Positions 6,001 to 56,365 of a stretch of 64,000 nt of DNA are shown one piece after another. The notes under the pieces are model-generated. The model did not search any database. It was not told where the DNA came from and saw only the letters and a list, made by a program, of their open reading frames with translations. Every line of letters starts with the position of its first letter. Position 1 is the first letter of the stretch. A program made the position numbers and the translations under genes. The DNA is taken from assembly GCF_030867145.1 (NCBI RefSeq), contig NC_134443.1, forward strand, positions 2,294,001 through 2,358,000. Direction: 5' to 3'. Source of the stretch: Opisthocomus hoazin. Taxonomy: Eukaryota; Chordata; Aves; Opisthocomiformes; Opisthocomidae.

Positions 6001-9000
6001 GGACGGTGGCATCACCCCAGGGATGATAGGATTGCCCCAGGAATGGTGGCATCACCCCTTGGGTAGCATCACCCCGGGAATGGTGGCATCATCCAGGGAT
6101 GATAGGATTGCCCCGGGGATGATGGCATCACCCCATGAGTGGCATCACCCCGGGGATGGTGGCATCACCCCAGGGATGATAGGATTGCCCTGGGGACAAC
6201 GGCATCGTCCCATGGGTGGCTTCACCCCAGGGATGGTGGCATCATCCAGGGATGATAGGATTGCCCCGGGGATGATGGCATCAGCCCATGAATGGCATCA
6301 CCCCGGGTATGGTGGCATCACCCCAGGGGATGACAGGATTGCCCCGGGGACAACGGCATCGCCCTGGGGATGATGGCATCACCCCAGGGACCCCACCATT
6401 ACCCTGGGGACAATGGTGTCACCCCACGGGTGGCATCACCCCAGGGATGGCAGCAGCACCCTGGGGACAACGGCATCACCCCTGGGATGCCAGCATTGCC
6501 CTGCGTATGACGGCAGGATCCAGGGGCTGGCATCACCCCAGGGCCAGTGACATGGCCCCGTGGACCCCGGCGTGGCCGCGGGGACCCCGATGTGGCCGTG
6601 GCGACCCCGAGGTGGCTGTGGGGACCCCACCTCACCTGGATCTGCCCGGGCCCGATGAAGAACTTGCCGAGGACGTTGCTGAGGAAGCTCTGCACCTCGT
6701 ACCAGGGGTAGATGCTGTTGGAGCCGTCCAGGACGATGACGATGTCCATGTAGGTGGGGCAGCCTGCGAGGGGGACGCAGCTGGCACCGGCGCGGCACAG
6801 CCTGGCACGCGTGGCCCAGCCCAACACGTGTGGCCCAGCCCAACACGCGTGGCCCAGCTCGCTACGGCCGCCCCACTCACGCTGCGCCGTGGGCGCGATG
6901 GGTGCCACCGGCCGGAGGTCGCCGTCCAGCCGGGCGCAGACGCCAGGGCTGAAGACTGAGGTGCCGCACTCCTGGGACCAAAGCGGGGCGCAAGCCTGGG
7001 GACGGGGGGGACACGCGGCGTGGGCACGGGACGTGCCTCAGTTTCCCCTCCAGGAGAGACCCCCTCTCACCACGAAGCCGCCGTCCTTGGAGTCCAGGAG
7101 GGTCATCCCCAAGTGCGCGCCGCGGCCGGGGCCGAGCCACGGGGCTGCCGCTCCTGGGGGGCCGGGGAGGGCGAGACGCGGGGGTCAGCGCCGGGGTGAC
7201 CCCCGGGACCCCGCCGTGGCCTCCGCGGGGGACGAAGCCGGGTGGGGGCACCCATCAGCGCGGGGCGCAGCCGTACCCAGGTTGGCCTTGGCGCAGGTGC
7301 CGTTGGGGGGTCCCACGCGGCACTTGTAGACGTCGCCTTGGCGGTCGCCGTCCCAGGGGGCCCCCACCAGCAGCCTGCGGGGACACGGCTGGGTCACCCC
7401 CACCCCCAGCACCCCGCTCGCCTCCGGCGTCTCGGGGCGCGGTGCCAGGGCCCGCTTGCCCCCGCCGCCGGCACCGTGCCACGGCGCTGCCGCCACCACC
7501 GGTTTCCGTCCGTCTGTCCGGCTGGCTGTGTCCCCCCGCCATCAGCCCCCCACCCACCGGCACCGGGGGCCCCCGGCTTTGCTGATGGGACCCTGATTCT
7601 CATTCCCCTCCCCCCCCAAGCCGCGCTGGGGCAAAGCACAAACCCGCGGTGACCCTAAGCCCCCGCTTCTGCCCCAGAAAAACACCGAGGGGGCTCCCTG
7701 CCTCAGTTTCCCCTCTGGGCTCTGTTTCTTCCCCCCCACCTCAGTGGCCCTGCCTCAATTTCCCCCCTCCCGCCTCAATTTCCCCCCCCTCCCTGCCTCA
7801 GTTTCCCCCCTCCCTGCCTCAGTTGCCCCTATGGCCTCTGTTTCTCCCCCCCCCGCTTCAGTTTCCCCCCCTCCCTGCCTCATTCCCCCCCAGCCTCACT
7901 TTCCCCCTCTCCACCTCAGTTGCCCCCCTCTCTGCCTCAGTTCCCCCTCCCCACCTCATTTCCCCCCCTCCCTGCCTAAGTTCCCCCCTCCCTGCCTCAT
8001 TTCACCCCCCACCTCAGTTGCCCCCCTCCCTGCCTCAGTTTCCCCCTCCCCACCTCAGTTGCCCCCCTCCCTGCCTCAGTTTCCCCCTCCCCACCTCAGT
8101 TGCCCCCCTCCCTGCCTCAGTTTCCCCTCCCCAGGGTATCGCAAGCCGCGAATCCCCCCATACCTTAGCCCTGCCCCACGGGATGTGCTGCTGGGGGGGT
8201 GTCCAAGCCCCCCCGTGCGTGTCCCCCCCCCACCCCTGGGTGCCACTCACCACTTCTCCCCGTCGCCCGCCCACTGCAGCACCTTGTAGCCGAACTGGGC
8301 TTCGGGGGGGCCGTGGAAGAGCCGGGGGTGCCTCACATCGATATTGAACCCCACGCACAGCCCTGGGGGGGGGGGGGGACAGGGAGCCCTGAGGGTGGGG
8401 GCACCCACGGCCCCCCGCATCCCCCCACACCGCCACGGCTTTGGCACCGTGGCGCCCACGCGAAACCCCCTCGTCATTTGAAAATAATCCGATTTTTTGG
8501 GTGCTGTTGGAGCACCCACCTCCCACCCCGGGGGGGGCACGGGGCACGGTGGGGGGGGGTGCGAGCCAAAGCTGCCTCATCTGCCATGGCCCACGGCGGG
8601 TTCGGCGCTGGGTGGGGGGACGGACGAGGGGTCACAGCGTGGCCCTGGCACCCATGGGTGAAACCGTGCCGGGAAGTGGGGAGCGGGGCCGGGGGTGGTG
8701 GGTGTCCCGGAGCGGGGGGGGCTGCGGTGCTGAGCACCCTGTCTGTGGCTCCAAGCACCCCAAACGCAACGCTGAGCACCCCAGCACAGCACCCAGCGCC
8801 CCAAATATAGCACCCAGCGCCCCAAGTATGGCACCCAGCACCCCGAGTGGGGCTCCAAGTACCCCGTATGCAGCACCAAGTACCCCAAAAGCAGCACTGA
8901 GCACCCCAAAAGCAGCACCCAGCACCCCACATATAGCACCAAGAACCCAAAATCTGGCCTCAAGCACCCCACGTACAGCACCCAGCACCCCAAGTGCAGC

Positions 9001-11731: not shown

Positions 11732-14179
11732 CTACGTGGTGGCATCCACGGCCGTCTCCTCCTCGCCAGCTGTGGGACCGAGCGCGCCGGGGCTGCCCAA
11801 GAGGCTGCGGAGCTGGAGCCAGAAGAAGGGACGCCTGCCAGGCTCGCGGGGCCACTCCAGGTAGGTCCTGGTGCCCAACATCTTCCGGAGCCGGGCAAAA
11901 CGCCGCGGCAAACCCCGAGCGTCGATGGGTTCCTTCACCACCAAGATGACGTCCTCGGTGCCAAGCCCCACGGCGCGCTGGTGGGCGAAGTAGAGCTCGT
12001 AGTTGCACCACTCGCTGTCGATGAAGCTGCGGGAGAGGACGAAGATGACCTTGGCGCTCCTCTCGATGTTCTCCACGATGTTCTCGATGATCCAACGGCC
12101 CGGCGTGAAGTCCCGCTCGTGGATGCAGAGCCGGTAGGGTGGCGTGGTGCTCTCCAGCCGGCGCAGCAGCTCCCGGCGAACCCAGCCGGCGTCGGCGCAG
12201 CTGTAGGAGATGAAGGCGTGGTAGGAGCATCGCCGCGTGGTGCCCGCCTGCCGCCCGCCGTACTTGGCGCACACCAACCGGTACGTGGCTCGCAGGTACC
12301 AACCGGCGTCCAGCTTCCAGCAGAGCGCGGCGCACGCCGCCACGGCCACCGCCGTGCTGGCCACCGCCACGGCCACCAGCGCCGGCACGTCGCATTCCAA
12401 GGGACGCGGGGCGTAAGCGGCCACGGCCGTGTCCAGCAGCGCCTCGGGGTGGTAGCAGGTCCAGTTGTGGGGCCAGTCGGCCAAGGTGGGGCGTCCCCGT
12501 CGCCGCGTCTCCTCCAGGAAGAGGTAGAGGTCACACGTGCAGTGGTAGGGGTTGTTGCCGGCCGCCAGGCTAACGAGCCGCGGCATGTTGACGAAGGAGC
12601 CGCGGTTGATGACGCCAAAGGAGTTGCCGTCGATGGCCAGCACCTGCAAAGGGGGGCACCTCCACTCGGAGGGGATGAACTTGATCTTGTTGCCGCTCAA
12701 CCGCAGCTCCCGCAGCCGGGGACTTCGGGTGAAGTAATCCATGTCCAAGCGGTCGAGCTGGGAGTAGGAGAGGTCCAGGTACTCGAGGGTGGTGGGCAGG
12801 CACCCGAAGGTGCCCACCGTCACCTGGTTGTGGTGCAGGGCCAGCCAACGCAAGGTGGGGCTCCACTGACACGTCTCCTGCAGGCTGCCCAAGCGATTGT
12901 GGCTGGCGTCGAGGCGGGCGAGCCGAGGCCAGGTCCGCGTCAAGGCGGCCACCACGGCTAGGCTCAGGAGCTGGTTGGTGGCCAAGACGAAGCTCTCCAG
13001 CTTGGGCATGACGCCCTGGTAGTGGCAACGCTGGTTGTAGATATAACCATCTTCCAGGCGGTTGCCGGAGATGTCCAAGGCCTCCACGTTGCGCATCTCG
13101 CCCCAAGCGTCGCAGGGGACGTAGTTGAAGTTGACGTTGATGATGGAGAGGGCGGCCACGCCGCTCAGCCAGGTGAAGGTCCAGTCGAAACGCAGGATGT
13201 CGGGGTTGCTGATGTCCTGCAGCAAGAGGCGGTCGAGCCGTGGGGCGGCTGCCCCCACGCCGGAGCTGTTCTGCCGCGGCGAGCGGGCGAAGTCGACGGC
13301 CAGCAGCGCCAAGTCGCGGACGCGGGAGCGCTGGACGTTGAGCAGGGCCAAGCGGAGGAGGTTCTCGCTGAACTTGCCCCGGTAGAAGACCAGCTTGGTG
13401 ATCTGCAACTCGGCCAAGCCGGCGAAGGGATCGGCGGCGCCGCTGTAGTAGGTGAACTCAAAGAGGTTCCGGAAGCGCAGGTAGCGGAGGGGTTTGCCGC
13501 GCAGGTCCCGCAGCATCGCCGGCAGAGCCGCCGCGCTCTCGTCCAAGGCCATGTCACACCACAGCTCCGTGGTGTTGAGCCAGGAGAAAGCCCCGGCTTC
13601 ATACCGCCGCAGGCTGGAGGCCGACTTGATGGCGAACTTCTGCAGCGCCGTGTCCTTCAAGATGGCCAGGTCCTCCCGGGAGATGTCCCGCAGCAGCGGC
13701 CCCCCCAGCGACAGCTCCCGCAGCTGCCGCAGCCCGCCGAAGGCGCCGTCCAACGCCGCGCTGCCGTAGAGGTTGTTGGACATGTCCAACCAACGGAGGT
13801 TGACCAACGGTCGCAACGCCGGCGCCGGGATGCGGCCGAGGGAGTTGTTGAAGAGCTGGAGGTGCTCCAAGAGGAGGTTGGAGAGGAAGGCGTCGGGCGC
13901 GATGCGGGAGATGTTGTTGTAGCCCAGATCCAAGCGCCGGAGCTGGGTCATGCCGGCGAAGTCGCGCGCCGTGATCTCCCGTAGCTTGTTGTAGGAGAGG
14001 TCGAGGCTGCGCAGGCCGCCGGGGAGCCCGCGGGGCACCCGCTCCAGGTCCTGCCCCTTGCACAGCCCCGTCTCGCCGGCGGTGTCGAAGCGGCACGGCG
14101 GCCACGCCGCGTCCCCCGCCAGCGCCAGCAGCACCAGGCACCAAACCCCGCGGGCGCTGGTGGTGGCGGGGGGCTGCAT
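11732..14179 (-). CDS. Toll-like receptor, TLR1/2 superfamily, TLR14/18-like
   Basis: Single-exon coding region of 815 residues. It predicts a membrane pattern receptor that would signal through MyD88-type adaptors. Seen in order: signal peptide (start MQPPATTSARG, hydrophobic CLVLLALAGDA); leucine-rich repeats with LDLSYNKL, LDLGYNNI and LDMSNN; a C-terminal LRR cap, NPYHCTCDLYLF (about 543-597); one membrane segment (about 598-621); and a TIR domain (about 651-797) with box 1 FISYS, box 2 RDFTPG (BB-loop proline present) and box 3 FW. CNYELYFAHQRAVG and VILVVKEPID resemble the TLR14/TLR18 lineage more than TLR1 or TLR2, by memory. An in-frame ATG at 14245 would add 22 Arg/Pro-rich residues before the signal peptide, so I prefer 14179. 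The frame is intact. The locus is not one I know for the usual avian TLRs. Confidence 0.9.
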   Translation of the reverse strand: MQPPATTSARGVWCLVLLALAGDAAWPPCRFDTAGETGLCKGQDLERVPRGLPGGLRSLDLSYNKLREITARDFAGMTQLRRLDLGYNNISRIAPDAFLSNLLLEHLQLFNNSLGRIPAPALRPLVNLRWLDMSNNLYGSAALDGAFGGLRQLRELSLGGPLLRDISREDLAILKDTALQKFAIKSASSLRRYEAGAFSWLNTTELWCDMALDESAAALPAMLRDLRGKPLRYLRFRNLFEFTYYSGAADPFAGLAELQITKLVFYRGKFSENLLRLALLNVQRSRVRDLALLAVDFARSPRQNSSGVGAAAPRLDRLLLQDISNPDILRFDWTFTWLSGVAALSIINVNFNYVPCDAWGEMRNVEALDISGNRLEDGYIYNQRCHYQGVMPKLESFVLATNQLLSLAVVAALTRTWPRLARLDASHNRLGSLQETCQWSPTLRWLALHHNQVTVGTFGCLPTTLEYLDLSYSQLDRLDMDYFTRSPRLRELRLSGNKIKFIPSEWRCPPLQVLAIDGNSFGVINRGSFVNMPRLVSLAAGNNPYHCTCDLYLFLEETRRRGRPTLADWPHNWTCYHPEALLDTAVAAYAPRPLECDVPALVAVAVASTAVAVAACAALCWKLDAGWYLRATYRLVCAKYGGRQAGTTRRCSYHAFISYSCADAGWVRRELLRRLESTTPPYRLCIHERDFTPGRWIIENIVENIERSAKVIFVLSRSFIDSEWCNYELYFAHQRAVGLGTEDVILVVKEPIDARGLPRRFARLRKMLGTRTYLEWPREPGRRPFFWLQLRSLLGSPGALGPTAGEEETAVDATT

Positions 14180-14252
14180 GGCCTCCGGCGCGGCGGCGGG
14201 GCGGCCGCGGAGGTGCCGCCGGCGGCGGGCACGGGGACGGGGCATCCGGGCA

Positions 14253-14268
14253 TCCCCGCGGAGCCGGC
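14253..14268 (-). promoter_or_regulatory. Splice acceptor and upstream ATG before the TLR frame
   Basis: A good minus-strand acceptor (CTCTCCCACCGCAG, with a CTGAC branch-like motif) puts the start of the TLR coding exon at 14268. An ATG at 14253 is out of frame with the receptor and overlaps its start, so it could dampen translation. Confidence 0.55.
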
Positions 14269-14409
14269 CTGCGGTGGGAGAGCAGCGGGGTCAGCGGTGC
14301 CACGTCGGGAGGACCCCGACCCCCCGGGTAGCAGCAGGATCGACCCCCGGGGGGGGCACCGGGACCGGGTGGGAGGGGGCACTGGGATCCGGGGGGGTGG
14401 GAATGGGTA

Positions 14410-19991: not shown

Positions 19992-22139
19992 CTAAGGCTT
20001 CAGCTTGAGCCAGGGGTGAAGGATGGTGAGGATGGAGAGGATGGAGGAGGTGAGGCCGCACAGCCCCACAAAGCCCGGGTTGGTTTTGTACAGCCCCAGC
20101 TTGTCCAGGGGGATGAAAAGGTCGCAGGCGTTTTTCACCACGTCCAGCAGCAGGGGAGGGTTGTTCCGAAGGACGCGGATCAGGAGCCGGAGCTGGATCT
20201 GCAGCCTCAGCCCCAGCTGCTGCAGCCTGGTGTCAGCCCGCAGCTGGCGCCCGCTCTCGCCGCCCTTCCCTCGCTTGCCGCCCGCCTCGCGCTCCATCAG
20301 GAGCCGGATCTCGTAGGCGTCCCGGCTCAGGTTCACGACGAGGGCAAAGAGGTAATACCTGCAAGGCAGGGGGGAGGGATGGGGAGAGGAGAGAGCGGGC
20401 AAACGGGGCGCGGGGGCTGCGGCTGGCGACGCTGGGAGCCTCCAGCTGCTTCCTCGCCGGCCACAGAAATAAAAAGCTGGCGGAGAGGAAGAGGAGGGGT
20501 CGTCCCGACAGCGGAGGGGCTGAGCTGGGCCGGGGAGGGGAGGGGAGCAGCCCTGCAGGCAGTGCTGGGGGGGGCTCAGAGCAGGACAGGGGACCCCGGG
20601 AGCCCCCCCAGGCCAGCAGAAGGGGGGCGAGGAAGGCGCGGGCCGGCGGCTCTCACCTGAAGGACCTCTGGCTCCACTTGTCCTGCTCCAGGCCAGGGGC
20701 GAGCCCTGCCTTGCCGGCCCAGAGGACGTTGTCACAGGCCAGGTACATGGCCCGGTTGAGGTGGCCGAGGGTGACGCAGAACCGCAGCACGGTGTCGGAC
20801 AGGTGGATGCCCCGCTTGGCTGCCTCCAGCGCTTCGGCCGAGCTGCCCAGGCGCAGAACTGCGGGACGGACGGACGGACGGTCACAGGGGGGCCTGGTGT
20901 CCCACCCCCCCGTCCCCGTTCACAGAATCACAGAATGGTTGGGGCTGGCAGGGACCTCTGTGGTCACCCAGCCCAACCCCCTGATCAAGCAGGGTCACCC
21001 AGAGCAGGCTGCACAGCACTGCGGCCAGGGGGGCTGGAATATCTCCAGAGAAGGAGACTCCACAGCCTCCCTGGGCAGCCTGGGCCAGGGCTCCGGCACC
21101 CTCAGAGGGAAGAAGTTCTTCCTCGGGTTCAGCTGGAGCTTCCTCTGCGCCAGTTTGTGCCCGTTGCCCCTTGTCCTGTCGCTGGGCACCACTGGAAAGA
21201 GCCTGGCCCCGTCCTCCTGACCCCCCCCTGAAGATATTGATCGGCATTTCTAAGGTCCCCTCTCAGCCTTCTCTTCTCCAGGCTGAACAAGCCCAGCTCC
21301 CTCAGCCTCTCCTCGTAGCAGAGATGCTCTCATCCCCTCCTCATCCTCGTAGCCCTGCGCTGGACTCTCTCCAGTAGCTCCTCGTCTTTCTTGAACTGGG
21401 GAGCCCAGCACTGGACCCAGCACTGCAGATGGGGCCTCCCCAGGGCAGAGCAGAGGGGCAGGAGAACCTCCCTCGCCCTGCTGCCCACACTCCTCTTGAT
21501 GCACCCCAGGATCCCATCGGCCTTCTGGGCACCCAGGGCACGCTGCTGGCTCATGGTCACCCTGTCGTCCCCCAGCACTCCCAGTCCCTCTCCGCAGAGC
21601 TGCTCCCAGCAGCTCAGCCCCAGCCTGTACTGGTGCCTGGGGTTGTTCCTCCCCAGGGGCAGGACCCTGCCCTTGCCCTTGCTGAACCTCATCAGGTTCC
21701 TCTCTGTCCAGCTCTCCAGCCTGCCCAGGGCTCGCTGGATCCAGCCCAGCCTGCCGGGGTATCCACCACTCCCGCGGTGGATACATCAGCAAACTGGCTG
21801 AGGGTGCGCTCTGACTCCTCCAGGTCAGCTCCTCATCGTCCCCTCCCCCGTCCCCGTTCCCCCCCCGCACCGGGCCGGCCCCACTCACGCTTGCGGCCCA
21901 GGCTGAGGTGAGCCTCCAGCTGCCGAACGCTGCCCAGGAGCCCGGCGCTCGCCCCGTTCCTCCGGAGCGCGTCCCCCGCCACGGCACAGGCGTACTGCGC
22001 GGCCCTGCGAGAAAGACGGCGCGGCGTCAGGCGGCGGGCCCGGCCCCGGGGGCACCGGGGGGACCGGGCCGCACCACCCGCACCTGAAGAGCCGCTCCTT
22101 AGCCTGGCTCTGCGCGCTGAAGCGCACCCAGGTCTCCAT
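19992..22139 (-). CDS. PEX11B: Peroxisomal membrane protein PEX11-beta
   Basis: Membrane-shaping protein that drives elongation and division of peroxisomes. Four coding exons: 22084-22139, 21889-22004, 20657-20858 and 19992-20358. The joined frame gives 246 residues, close to the human 259. Seen: the N-terminal [17 protein letters not shown] and AAQYAC amphipathic part, [37 protein letters not shown], then the C-terminal [24 protein letters not shown] and SSILSILTI membrane part ending in LKLKP. The loop after the YEIRLLMER region is shorter than in human. A CR1 fragment lies in intron 2. It is divergent from LIX1L, with 796 bp between the start codons. The start is the only ATG in frame with the family N-terminus. 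Confidence 0.97.
20922..21835 (-). mobile_element. CR1 LINE, 5'-truncated, in PEX11B intron 2
   Basis: Its 3' end on the minus strand is the CR1 octamer tail ATTCTGTGATTCTGTGA. It keeps about 0.9 kb of the end of the second reading frame and the 3' UTR (for example the GTCCAGTGCTGGGCTCCCCAG type segment). It is very similar to the copy at 25972-26661, which lies in the opposite orientation. Confidence 0.93.
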
Positions 22140-33440
<11,301 letters not shown>

Positions 33441-36739: not shown

Positions 36740-39057
<2,318 letters not shown>

Positions 39058-39937: not shown

Positions 39938-42018
39938 TCACGTGAAGCTCTCCGCCGTCCTCCGGCACAGCGCGCACCGCCGTCCCGCCGTCCCCTCCAG
40001 CTCCTGCCTCCCGCGTGCCCCCGCGCTGCCGCCGGCTCTCGCGGTGACGTCCTCGTGCCGGCGACGGCCGCAGCGGCAGGCGCGCCGCAGCTCCCGGCGG
40101 AATCGCGCCGTGAAGAGCCCGTACACCAGCGGGTCCAGGCACGTGTTGAGGAGGCCGAAGAGGAAGAGGATGTGGCTGAGAGCCGGCGGCACCCGCTCCC
40201 GCGTCAGCATCTCGGGGGAGAACCAGTACCAGAGGCCCAGCAGGTAGTAGGGCGTCCAGCAGCCGATGAAGGTGAGGACGATGACGATGGACATCTTCAG
40301 CGCGCGCGTCCGCGCCCGGGGGATGTTGTTGGAGGAGCAGCGGAGCTGGAGCTCCCGGGAGGAGGCTGCTGGGCGGCGGCGGAGCGGGAGGGGGGAGCGC
40401 GGCGCCCCGGGCTTCGTTAGTGCTGGGTTAACGAGCTGGGGTGCTGGACCCCGGCAAGAGGGGGAAGCAGGAGTGTGGCACCCCAGGGTTCGTTAGGAGC
40501 ACTGGGTTAATGAGCTGGGGGTGCTGAACCCCGGCAAGAGGGGGAAGCAGGAGTGTGGCACCCCAGGGTTCGTTAGGAGCGCTGGGTTAATGAGCTGGGG
40601 GTGCTGGACCCTGGCAGGAGGGGGAAGCAGGAGCGCGGCACCCCGGGGTTCGTTAGGAGCGCTAGGTTAACGAGCTGGGGTGCTGGACCCTGGCAAGAGG
40701 GGGAAGCAGGAGCGTGGCACCCCAGGGTTCATTAGGAGCACTGGGTTAACGAGCTGGGGGCGCTGGACCCCAGCAGGAGGGGGAAGGAGGAGCGTGGCAC
40801 CCCGGGGTTCGTTAGGAGCGCTGGGTTAACGAGCTGGGGTGCTGGACCCCGGCAAGAGGGGGAAGGAGCAGCGTGGCACCCCAGGGTTCGTTAGGAGCGC
40901 TGGGTTAATGAGCTGGGGGTGCTGGACCCTGGCAGGAGGGGGAAGCAGGAGCGTGGCACCCCGGGGTTCGTTAGGAGCACTGGGTTAATGAGCTGGGGGC
41001 GCTGGACCCCAGCAGGAGGGGGAAGGAGGAGCGTGGCACCCCGGGGTTCGTTAGGAGCACTGGGTTAACGAGCTGGGGGCGCTGGACCCCAGCAGGAGGG
41101 GGAAGCAGGAGCGTGGCACCCCGGGGTTCGTTAGGAGCACTGGGTTAACGAGCTGGGGGCGCTGGACCCCAGCAGGAGCATCGGGAGGGGGTCACGGGCG
41201 AGCAGCAGCGCGTGCGGGGCTGGGGTCGCGGCGCGTGCTCTCACCGCGGGCGTCGCCGGCGCGGGCGGAGATGGCGGCGAGGATGCGGCCGTAGCAGAGC
41301 ACCATGACGAGCAGGGGGAGGAGGAAGAGGCAGAGGAAGGTGAACATGTTGTAGAGCGTCTCCTGCCAGCGCGCCCCGAAGCTGCCCACCGTCGCGCACT
41401 GCACGAAGCGCCGCGGCCGCGACCGCTGCACCGTGTGGAAGACGAACGCCTGCGAGGGTCCCGGGTGGGGGGGCCGTCAGCGTCCTTCCTCCCCCTCCCA
41501 TCATCATCATCATCGCCCCGCGGAGGTTTCCCCACCTGCGGCAGAGCCAGCACGGCGCTGAGCGCCCACGCCGCGCACAGCATCGCCTTGTTCCGCCTCT
41601 TGGCGCGGCCCACCGCCAAGGGGGTGACGATGGCGGCGTGGCGGTCCAGCGCGATGACGACGGTGACGAAGGCCGAGGCGTACATGGCGGCCAGCTTGAG
41701 GAACATGAGCGCCCGGCACGCCGCGTCCCCGCCGTACCACTGCACGGTGACGTTCCAGGCGGCGTCCAGCGGCATCACCACCACCGTCACCAGCAGATCG
41801 GCCGCCGCCAGGTTGGCCATCAGGACGCGGACGCGCGGCGGACGCCGCCGCGGCGCCCGGGCGGCCGACCAGAGCACAGCACCGTTGCAGCAAGCCGAGG
41901 AGAGGAAGAGGAGGCAGGTGATGGCCACCCGCACCTTGGCCGCGGTGGAGAAGGTGGGCAGCAGGACCAGCTCCTCGCCGCCGCGGCTCCGGTTCCCCGC
42001 CGTCGCGGTGACGTTCAT
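39938..42018 (-). CDS. GNRHR2: Gonadotropin-releasing hormone receptor, type II-like
   Basis: Class A G-protein-coupled receptor for GnRH. Three exons, 41536-42018, 41245-41449 and 39938-40365, give 371 residues. Seen: N-terminal glycosylation sites (MNVTATAGNRS); TM2 ending MPLDAAWNVTVQWY, with the Asp, Trp and Asn that bind ligand in this family; LKLAAMY with the TM3 Lys; the DRH motif (LDRHAAIVTPL); TM6 CWTPYYLLGLWYW; third loop ERVPPALS, of the PP type seen in non-mammalian and type II receptors; and TM7 DPLVYG. It has the cytoplasmic tail that mammalian type I lacks. The frame is intact, unlike the broken human gene. The start is placed at MNVT; upstream in-frame codons lack family likeness. 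The exon 3 acceptor is a CAGCAG tandem, so one codon is uncertain. Intron 2 is an 80-bp tandem array. Confidence 0.95.
40405..41180. repeat. 80-bp tandem array in GNRHR2 intron 2
   Basis: About nine and a half copies, with the anchor GTTCGTTAGGAGC recurring at about 40489, 40569, 40649, 40728, 40808, 40887, 40967, 41047 and 41127. The period is 79-80 bp and copies differ at only a few positions. It occupies nearly the whole 879-bp intron. Confidence 0.96.
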
Positions 42019-53401: not shown

Positions 53402-56365
53402 TCACTGCACGTTGTTGTTCGCCACGCAGGGATCCACCTGAGGGAGGGGGCAGAGCGGCCGCTCAGACGCTGGAGGGGCTCGGCCCCGAGCCGGAGCCCC
53501 CCCAGCGCCGTCCCCGTGCCCCCCGCCGCCGCGCCGGCCCCGCTCCTCACCTCCGTGTAGGTGGGTGGCGGCATGAACTTGAACTCGGGCGCGTACATGA
53601 AGATGGGGCTGTCGAAGCTGTCGGGGTCATCCAGCAGCGGCGTGGTGGGGCTCTCCAGGCGGTGGTCTTCAGGGACGATGTCCAGGTAGCAGGGGGGGGC
53701 TGCGGGGGGAAGGGGGGACACGTCAGCTCGCCGACGTCTCCCGCGTTCCCCCGTCGCAGCCCGCCGTAACCCCCCCCAGCCCCCCCAGACTCATGGGGGG
53801 TCAGAGCGGCCCCCGCTCACCTTCGGGAGCGTCGGGGAGGTTCAGATCCACCCAGCTCATCTCGGAGCTGGTCTGACTGGCCATGCTGGAGCTGCGGCTC
53901 CCGATGCCCGAGCGGCTGCCGATGACCAGGGGCAGCTCCAGGATGATCTTCTTGGAGCCCGGGACGCTGACGTAGATCTGCCAGGGGAAGGAGCCCAGTT
54001 TGAAGGGACGTCGGGAACCCGGTGGGGACACAGAGCCCGCCGACACCTCGGCCGGCCGCGCCGCTCACCTGCAGGAAGTACTCCACGCGCAGGATGTTGC
54101 AGCCCAGGATGGACGGCTTCAGCTTCTTGACGCGGATGGTTTTGCCGCGCCAGGACTCGGACATGCCTGAGATGATGTGGTTGCCTCGGACGCAGGAGAG
54201 TTTCTGGGTGAACACCTTGGTCTGCCCGTTGGCCAGGTAGGTGTGCTTGGCCACGATGGCCGCTTTGGGCACCACGATGCGGGAGCACGTGTTCTCGAAG
54301 TCGGCGTTGATGCAGATGTCGTCGCCTGCGGGAGGGAAGCGCGCCTGGCGTGAAGGGAGGTCGGCGGCAGGATGCCCGTTTTGGCCCCCGATGCGCGGGC
54401 ACTGCCCGTCCCGCCACCCCGCGCCCCTCTCCGCCCCGCCGAGAGCGCAGCGCAGGCTCTCACCTTCGCAGAACCCCTTCCTGTCGATCTGGGCGCTGAC
54501 TGAGACGCGTCCGTCGGGAATGAACATGCAGGACACCTTCTTCTCCTTCTTGGCAGCTACTGGGGACTGAGGAGGAAGACGACTGTTACCGAGGCGACAG
54601 CTGCCCGTGCTTCCCACCCCACACCTTCCTTCCTCCCGTTTTGTTTCGCAACCGAAGCTTCGAGTTCCGCATGGGCTCGAGTGTCTCGCTGCCAAGCGAA
54701 AGCAGAACGAGCGCCTCTCTTCATTCTGCCTCGGTGTAGCTTTCCAGAAGTAACTAGAGCTCCTTAAGAACTAAGTACTCAATCCGTGCCCAGCAATAAA
54801 GCCTATTAGGGGAGTCTTAACGACAGAGGTCAGACTGACCCTCCCCGAGGGCTTTTCCCTCTCGTAACGCCCGCTGACACCCAAACCTCAAAGCAAAGCA
54901 GCGCTCACCAGCAATTCCGGAGTGTTCACGTCGACGGGATCCATAACCTCGAAGCGCTTCTTTATCTCCTGAGTGGGAAAGGACGGGCGCTCCAGGAAGG
55001 CCTTCACCCAGTAATCCACGCAGCCGTACTTGCCCTTGAAGGTGGTACCCAGCGGCCTGCGGCAGGAGACACTTGTTAGACACATCCGAGGCGACAAAGG
55101 AACGTCCCGTAGCAGTCAAGTCTCACCGAGAGGCAGCGCTCCTCTCGTACTTACCCCTGGGGAAGCTCGAATCCAAACTTGTACTCGTACTTGTTCCCGG
55201 GTCTCAGGATTACGGAGCCGTCCCCATCTGGGAAAAGAGAAAGCGAAGGGCAACGTCAGCTGAAGCTCTGTGAGTTTGTTCTTAAGCATGATCCCCTGTC
55301 CTGCTGACACAGGCGGCGATGAAGGCAGGCGCTGCAGGGGCTGGAGCCGCATGAGCTGTTCAGTGAGAGCCACCCACACTGCCCCCCACGAAGAGCCCGA
55401 GCCCCCGGCGCCCGCTCGCATGCAGGGCAGCGCTGCTCGCTTCGTCTCACTTCTCCTTTCAACAGCCCCATCCGAGGCCGGAACGCCGTGCCCCGATGCG
55501 CCTTGCCGTCGCCTCTCCTCGCCACACCCCATGGGAGCGCCCAGCACCCGCTTCTCCCCTCAGCTATCTCGGCATCTCCCAGCCTGCGCGTCGCCCCGGT
55601 TATCTCTCCCAGGACACTCTGCCAAGGCCCCGTATCTCTCGCCTTCCCTGCAGCCGGCCAAACACGGAGGCCCACAGCAGACTCCTTGTCTCGGGCCAGA
55701 TCTGTGCCACCGTGTCGGCACCCCCGGCTGAGGCCGAGCCCCGAACTCGCTCCCTGCGGGCACACCCCATCCCTGCCAGCCGTGCCGGCACCCAACGGCT
55801 TCAGCACGCTCTGGCGGGCAGCTCGCCCTGCTTGCAAACTTCGCACCTGGCTTTGCCCAGCCCTGCTGAGCTCTGCCTGCCCGCGGGTTCCCACGAACTG
55901 CTCATTTCGCCGGAGTCCCAGCCACCGTCGAACCCCGCTCCCGCCTCAGCGCCGAGCGAGACTCCGCAACTCCTCGCCCCAACCCGGCCACCGCGATCCC
56001 CACCGGGACGCGGCCAAAGCCCGGCTCTGGCCTCCTCCGCCGGAGAAGCCGCCACCAACGGGCGACCTCGACGCCCTCTCCTCCCCCCCACCCCGTCCCG
56101 CTCCCAGCCCCTCACCAGTGGGCTGCTCCTCCAGCGCCAGCACGTCCTCGAAGCGCAGGTACTCCATCTCCTGCCGGCACTGCTGTGGGCCCTTGGCCCA
56201 GTTGACCTTGGCCACCCCGCAGGCCAGCACCCTGACGGCATTGACGCGCGTCACCTCGGCCACCTCCACCAGCACGCGCCCGGCCACCTTCTCCCCGCTG
56301 CAGTACACCTTCTCGGGCTCGCTGAAGGTCATCAGGAAAGTCTTCACCTTCTTGAACATCACCAT
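53402..56365 (-). CDS. TXNIP: Thioredoxin-interacting protein (alpha-arrestin), Ser at position 247
   Basis: Alpha-arrestin that restrains glucose uptake and, in mammals, inhibits thioredoxin through a mixed disulfide. Exons: 56116-56365, 55155-55227, 54909-55056, 54464-54566, 54069-54325, 53821-53977, 53551-53699 and 53402-53437. They give 390 residues (human 391). Seen: arrestin N half (MVMFKKVKTF, NKYEYKFGFELPQGPLG, KGKYGCVDYWVKAF), arrestin C half (KKEKKVSCMFIPDGRVSVSA, NTCSRIVVPKAAIVAKHTYL, PSILGCNILRVEY), the two PPxY ubiquitin-ligase motifs (APPCYLD and MPPPTYTE), and the TXNIP-specific end VDPCVANNNVQ. Cys63 is kept. The residue aligned with human Cys247, the thioredoxin-bonding cysteine, is Ser (SGMSESWRGK against human SGTCASWRGK). 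Human Cys36 is Ala here, and Cys22 and Cys236 are extra. Confidence 0.97.

Follow-up and report, generated by a model that had tools for sequence, protein, structure and literature searches.

TXNIP, an alpha-arrestin and regulator of sugar metabolism, has been investigated in diabetes and inflammation for its role as a thioredoxin brake. In the human protein, Cys247 bonds thioredoxin, and two papers differ on the partner, given as thioredoxin Cys32 in PMC10852281 and as Cys35 in PMC4942636. According to PMC10852281, human Cys63 is the partner of Cys247 across protomers and, once thioredoxin is bound, of Cys190, and the laboratory mutant C247S forms no thioredoxin bond, shows enhanced binding and degradation of GLUT1, and continues to lower glucose uptake. 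The mutant also keeps ITCH while losing 15 of 31 BioID partners (PMC4942636, in part), and its full-length form, expressed in mouse cones, was the most effective for cone rescue (PMC10871187, in part). In the mouse hypothalamus, C247S fails where the wild type acts on energy expenditure (PMC7464905, in part), so that the absence of the Cys247 bond does matter for at least one metabolic role.

Outside mammals, chicken TXNIP is expressed, its level in abdominal fat being higher in a fat line than in a lean one (PMC3765218, in part). Turtle and human Txnip were aligned in PMC8606161, whose available portions contain neither a mention of residue 247 nor the term Cys247. Among the open-access titles and abstract openings that we searched, none reports a non-mammalian TXNIP devoid of Cys247, which earlier species alignments may nevertheless show, and the open-access literature searched yielded no binding experiment on a non-mammalian TXNIP. 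Here, we describe the TXNIP gene of the hoatzin, Opisthocomus hoazin, which carries Ser at this position, and examine the distribution and probable direction of the difference.

The window, i.e. the whole stretch of 64,000 nucleotides that was analyzed, contains an open and complete TXNIP frame (Table 1). Translation of the eight joined coding exons gives 390 amino acids and a stop at 53404-53402, and all seven introns are of the GT-AG type. The protein aligns without gaps with human TXNIP (PDB 4LL4) over query residues 3-317, Cys63 falling at position 63, and harbors Arrestin_N (E 6.1e-23) and Arrestin_C (E 3.4e-22) domains scoring over the Pfam cut-offs. The named top rows of the homologue search are all annotated as TXNIP. 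The hoatzin record P0001, once relieved of 46 residues originating from a retained intron 4, equals the window protein letter for letter; as it may derive from the same assembly, it is not an independent read of the window.

A six-frame search of the hoatzin genome (1.48 Gb, 415 contigs) for TXNIP-like matches returned 26 protein matches, of which seven, with 71-96% identity to duck TXNIP, define a single TXNIP locus. The remaining 19 (35-53% identity) fall at four further alpha-arrestin loci, to which an Arrestin_C search added a fifth, C19. In the window, the gene is accompanied by exons encoding VWA, PEX11, LIX1 and RRM domains, which we read as ITGA10, PEX11B, LIX1L and RBM8A, the neighbors of TXNIP in human 1q21, and by GPCR exons that presumably represent a GNRHR2-like gene. 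Best match, single locus and neighbors, the latter in agreement with the human neighborhood, all indicate orthology with TXNIP. The identification made in the original prediction is hence retained, together with its gap-free correspondence to the human protein and its account of preserved arrestin domains and PPxY motifs.

Several features of the region are recorded here in their own right. Intron 4 of TXNIP (54326-54463) is 138 bases long, has no in-frame stop and is kept in record P0001; at the same place, six of the 14 bird rows checked bear an insert of 30-46 residues that differs between rows. These inserts are probably the annotation of retained introns and possibly a real isoform adjoining Cys190. 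Between the two GPCR exons lie about 10 repeats of an 80-base unit with 91% matches. A gene of the Toll-like receptor type is represented by one uninterrupted frame, 852 codons long, that encodes leucine-rich repeats and a TIR domain.

Table 1. Features of the hoatzin TXNIP gene and of its surroundings in the window
Feature	Position	Strand	Detail	Basis
TXNIP coding part	53402..56365	-	390 aa, stop included	exon joins and translation, Pfam, human chains, P0001
TXNIP exons 1-4	56365-56116, 55227-55155, 55056-54909, 54566-54464	-		exon joins and translation
TXNIP exons 5-8	54325-54069, 53977-53821, 53699-53551, 53437-53402	-		exon joins and translation
Codon 63	56177..56179	-	Cys	translation
Codon 190	54468..54470	-	Cys	translation
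K212	54264..54266	-	GLUT1-binding residue	motif scan; PMC10852281 (in part)
Codon 236	54192..54194	-	TGC (Cys)	translation; 135-row alignment
R238	54186..54188	-	GLUT1-binding residue	motif scan; PMC10852281 (in part)
Codon 247	54159..54161	-	TCC (Ser), column of human Cys247	translation; column placed by alignment
K287	53948..53950	-	GLUT1-binding residue	motif scan; PMC10852281 (in part)
Ser308	53885..53887	-		motif scan
PPCY motif	53686..53697	-	residues 331-334	motif scan
Di-leucine	53632..53637	-	L351-L352	motif scan
PPTY motif	53557..53568	-	residues 374-377	read from window protein
VWA exon	6402-7037
Toll-like receptor type gene	11735-14290	-	852 codons
PEX11 exon	20656-20919
LIX1 exon	32871-33437
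RRM exon	38715-38876
GPCR exon	39941-40492
80-base repeat	40394-41178
GPCR exon	41195-41476

Residue 247 of the hoatzin protein lies within SGMSESWRGK, where the human protein (PDB 4LL4) reads SGTCASWRGK, and the translation of its codon as Ser agrees with the original prediction. A motif scan of the six frames of the window matched the codon 247 site itself and one unrelated site, without a second exon carrying the Cys, the finding that could have overturned this reading. Ser247 is a real feature of the gene. Around it, the protein keeps K212, R238, K287, Ser308, the PPCY and PPTY motifs and the di-leucine, as well as both Cys63 and Cys190 of the human-type disulfide switch. In mammals, Ser308 is a site controlled by AMPK and insulin (PMC7464905, in part) and the di-leucine is a clathrin motif (PMC10871187, in part). 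The thioredoxin partner is not missing either: one exon with WCGPC, at C41:33316909-33317019, reads SATWCGPCKMIKPFF, which we take to belong to thioredoxin-1 (TRX1).

The distribution of residue 247 was examined in an alignment of the window protein with P0001-P0135, the matches listed by two homologue searches. Of the 136 rows, 135 were read at this column, P0001 being omitted as a duplicate of the window, and each row is the single sequence retained from a 90% cluster (P0006, for instance, has 470 other members). All 18 bird rows have Ser, the window counting as one and zebra finch as two, as do crocodile, turtle and tuatara (one row each) and six of the seven squamates, i.e. 27 of 28 sauropsid rows. 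Amphibians display Thr in 25/25 rows, with some species represented twice, while Ser is found in the single lungfish row and in two coelacanth rows from one species. Cys247 is present in all five mammalian rows, platypus included, and in 61 of the 63 rows from ray-finned fishes, among them Polypterus, sturgeon, Amia and gar; the two exceptions have Gly and Tyr. The remaining 11 rows divide into six Cys, three Thr and two Ser. Beyond the alignment, P0136, P0137 and P0139 have Ser in the 247 column and Cys at 236, and the column is not covered in P0138 and P0140. No shark or lamprey TXNIP occurred among the named rows of the best 120 of 379, the best 120 of 501 and 66 of 66 matches.

The only sauropsid row with Cys247, from the lizard Elgaria multicarinata webbii (P0025), possesses it alongside Cys236; the residue was either gained recently among lizards or stems from a sequencing error. 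The conservation of Ser across birds, posed beforehand as support for a lineage-wide change, is borne out, and the same column assigns the difference to far more than this lineage, given the Ser or Thr of other sauropsids, amphibians, lungfish and coelacanth. A loss of Cys247 restricted to birds was therefore rejected.

To which state is the older one, the other alpha-arrestins of the same genome give an indication. Column 247 is Thr at C10, C40 and C41, Arg at C27 and His at C19, the latter read from a weak alignment with a hand-joined peptide, so that Cys occurs at none of these five loci. The alignment of C. elegans ARRD-6 from the PDB was too weak for placing residue 247. The C40 locus, with Thr at the column, occurs twice in opposite orientation: an ARRDC3-like gene is found at 42335480-42335767 (L003) and at 42369399-42369686 (L004), the copies being separated by about 34 kb and scoring equally exon after exon. 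This pair may be a genuine inverted duplication or an artefact of the assembly. At the codon level, a single base separates the Ser codon TCC from TGC (Cys) as well as from ACC (Thr), and the Thr of the paralogues is encoded by ACA.

With a non-Cys root and equal costs, three gains (ray-finned fishes, mammals and Elgaria) suffice, whereas a single stem origin costs four changes. In a protein tree built from 133 rows without columns 229-257, P0057, P0063 and P0068 having been dropped as too gappy, a minimum of five changes between Cys and not-Cys is needed, the number expected from these three groups plus the two ray-fin exceptions. The result depends on the price of a gain. If a gain is as expensive as three losses, the single origin is still the costlier option under the non-Cys root, and under a Cys root regain and repeated loss come out equal; at the price of four losses, the single origin is the less costly one under the non-Cys root. 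Overall, the balance tips towards repeated loss when a gain is worth some three to four losses. Retention of a hydroxyl residue is supported by the nature of the exceptions, as the two ray-fin departures are Gly and Tyr while the lobe-finned non-Cys groups all have Ser or Thr. In the absence of cartilaginous-fish and lamprey TXNIP among the matches listed, the root rests on the paralogues, of which C19 is weakly aligned. On these sequences, Ser/Thr looks like the ancestral alpha-arrestin state, which is likely rather than proven, and Cys247 probably arose on separate occasions, in mammals, in ray-finned fishes and in one lizard. Calling the redox function lost, as the original prediction did as one option, thus probably gives the wrong direction, since Ser or Thr is found in 27 of 28 sauropsid rows and in all amphibian, lungfish and coelacanth rows, and Thr at three of the five paralogous loci.

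The opposite polarity, in which Cys247 was ancestral and disappeared in coelacanth, lungfish, amphibians and sauropsids, would make the Ser of birds a true loss, albeit a far older one. We regard this as rather unlikely: it requires four to seven losses, every one of them landing on Ser or Thr, the state of the paralogues, with Thr at least two base changes from Cys, and equal-cost parsimony prefers separate gains. Its strength lies in Polypterus, sturgeon, Amia and gar, whose Cys could make the residue as old as bony fishes, and in the costs given above, which are equal under a Cys root when a gain is priced at three losses and favor a single origin under a non-Cys root at four. The state of Cys63 also fits: apart from two rows with a gap, the residue is kept everywhere except in crocodile (Arg), Anolis (Arg) and coelacanth (Pro). 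These three animals are also devoid of Cys247, as expected of a disused disulfide.

With separate gains of Cys247 as the preferred reading, the hoatzin protein is by its sequence an ordinary TXNIP by descent, minus the residue behind the name of TXNIP. Its arrestin domains would hold GLUT-type transporters through K212, R238 and K287, while the PPxY motifs would recruit HECT ubiquitin ligases and the di-leucine clathrin. Ser247 would not form a mixed disulfide of the kind made by human Cys247 with thioredoxin Cys32, and thioredoxin should consequently not compete with the transporter for TXNIP, as in human C247S. Most likely, the hoatzin TXNIP acts as an endocytic alpha-arrestin without the Cys247-thioredoxin bond. 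The complete reading, namely a TXNIP orthologue with a probably old Ser/Thr at 247, serving as an endocytic adaptor that thioredoxin does not bond, Cys247 having been gained separately elsewhere, is the one we consider reasonably probable. On this view, mammals and ray-finned fishes would seem to have acquired the thioredoxin grip later, and birds would not have lost it recently.

Besides the mouse hypothalamus result, the price of a gain and the Cys247 of Elgaria, what counts against this explanation is another set of cysteines, which could bind thioredoxin instead. Cys236 is found in 28/28 sauropsid rows and is replaced by Ser in the five mammals, Cys235 in 25/25 amphibian rows and in 3/63 rows of ray-finned fishes, and Cys249 in lungfish, while Cys190 is invariant (135/135 rows). 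Three further positions vary: residue 196 (54312-54314) is Cys in most non-mammalian rows and Ser or Asn in the five mammals, residue 36 (56258-56260) is Cys in four of the five mammals and Ala in hoatzin, and 13 of the 18 bird rows have Cys at residue 22 (56300-56302).

The thioredoxin grip may have moved, with Cys236, Cys235 or Cys249 bonding thioredoxin or exerting redox control beside R238 in sauropsids, amphibians and lungfish, respectively. Across 133 rows, 68 have Cys247 only, 57 have Cys235/236 only, four have both and four neither, a near exclusion that shrinks to five independent contrasts once relatedness is considered (sign test, median p 1, range 0.5-1); with fewer than six independent pairs, the test cannot reach 0.05. 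The exclusion is also broken by coelacanth, which has neither cysteine, and by Polypterus and Elgaria, which have both. A structure predicted for the duck protein P0003 from 60 aligned sequences has a fold that matches the TXNIP chains, and its moderate confidence (mean pLDDT 61.5, pTM 0.45) applies equally to the placement of residue 236 in strand 226-238 and of residue 247 at the opening of strand 247-256, from which the two would flank one loop. Residue 236 is moreover two residues away from the GLUT1-binding R238. A relocated grip appears unlikely, and Cys236, or Cys235 in amphibians, might be an alternative redox handle that the contrasts do not support statistically. A combined scheme, in which Cys247 capture evolved at least twice (ray-finned fishes and mammals) on an alpha-arrestin otherwise retaining Ser/Thr, and the sauropsid 236 and amphibian 235 thiols separately supplied, next to R238, a redox control of transporter binding that is of another kind and more direct, also strikes us as unlikely. 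An artefact, whether a base-call error, a wrong or alternative exon or a paralogue mistaken for TXNIP, is scarcely conceivable in view of the Ser in all 18 bird rows (window counted), the gap between the single TXNIP locus and its paralogues (53% identity at most), the neighboring exons, which fit the TXNIP neighborhood, and the outcome of the six-frame motif scan, and was rejected.

Should only mammals and ray-finned fishes possess the grip, TXNIP would at its core control transporters in the manner of an arrestin, and entire vertebrate classes would be natural counterparts of C247S. Cells of chicken, lizard or frog could in that case serve to test how the redox and metabolic roles of TXNIP are split, and studies of poultry or reptiles should not adopt the TXNIP-thioredoxin scheme without such a test.

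Compared with known systems, the hoatzin protein differs from human and other mammalian TXNIP (PDB 4LL1, 4LL4) in having Ser247 in place of Cys247, and Cys at 22, 196 and 236 and Ala at 36 where the mammalian rows mostly have Gly, Ser, Ser and Cys, respectively. Within the same genome, the alpha-arrestins that we read, independently of annotation, as ARRDC3- or ARRDC4-like resemble it in presenting a hydroxyl at the column within the pattern SG-x-[ST]-[DE]-[ST]-W; at C10, C40 and C41 the residue is Thr instead of Ser, and these loci are 41-47% identical to duck TXNIP over the exon. The laboratory mutant C247S has the very residue of hoatzin at position 247 and keeps GLUT1 control and ITCH, according to the studies cited above; the hoatzin form is natural, differs from the mutant elsewhere in the protein and possesses Cys236.
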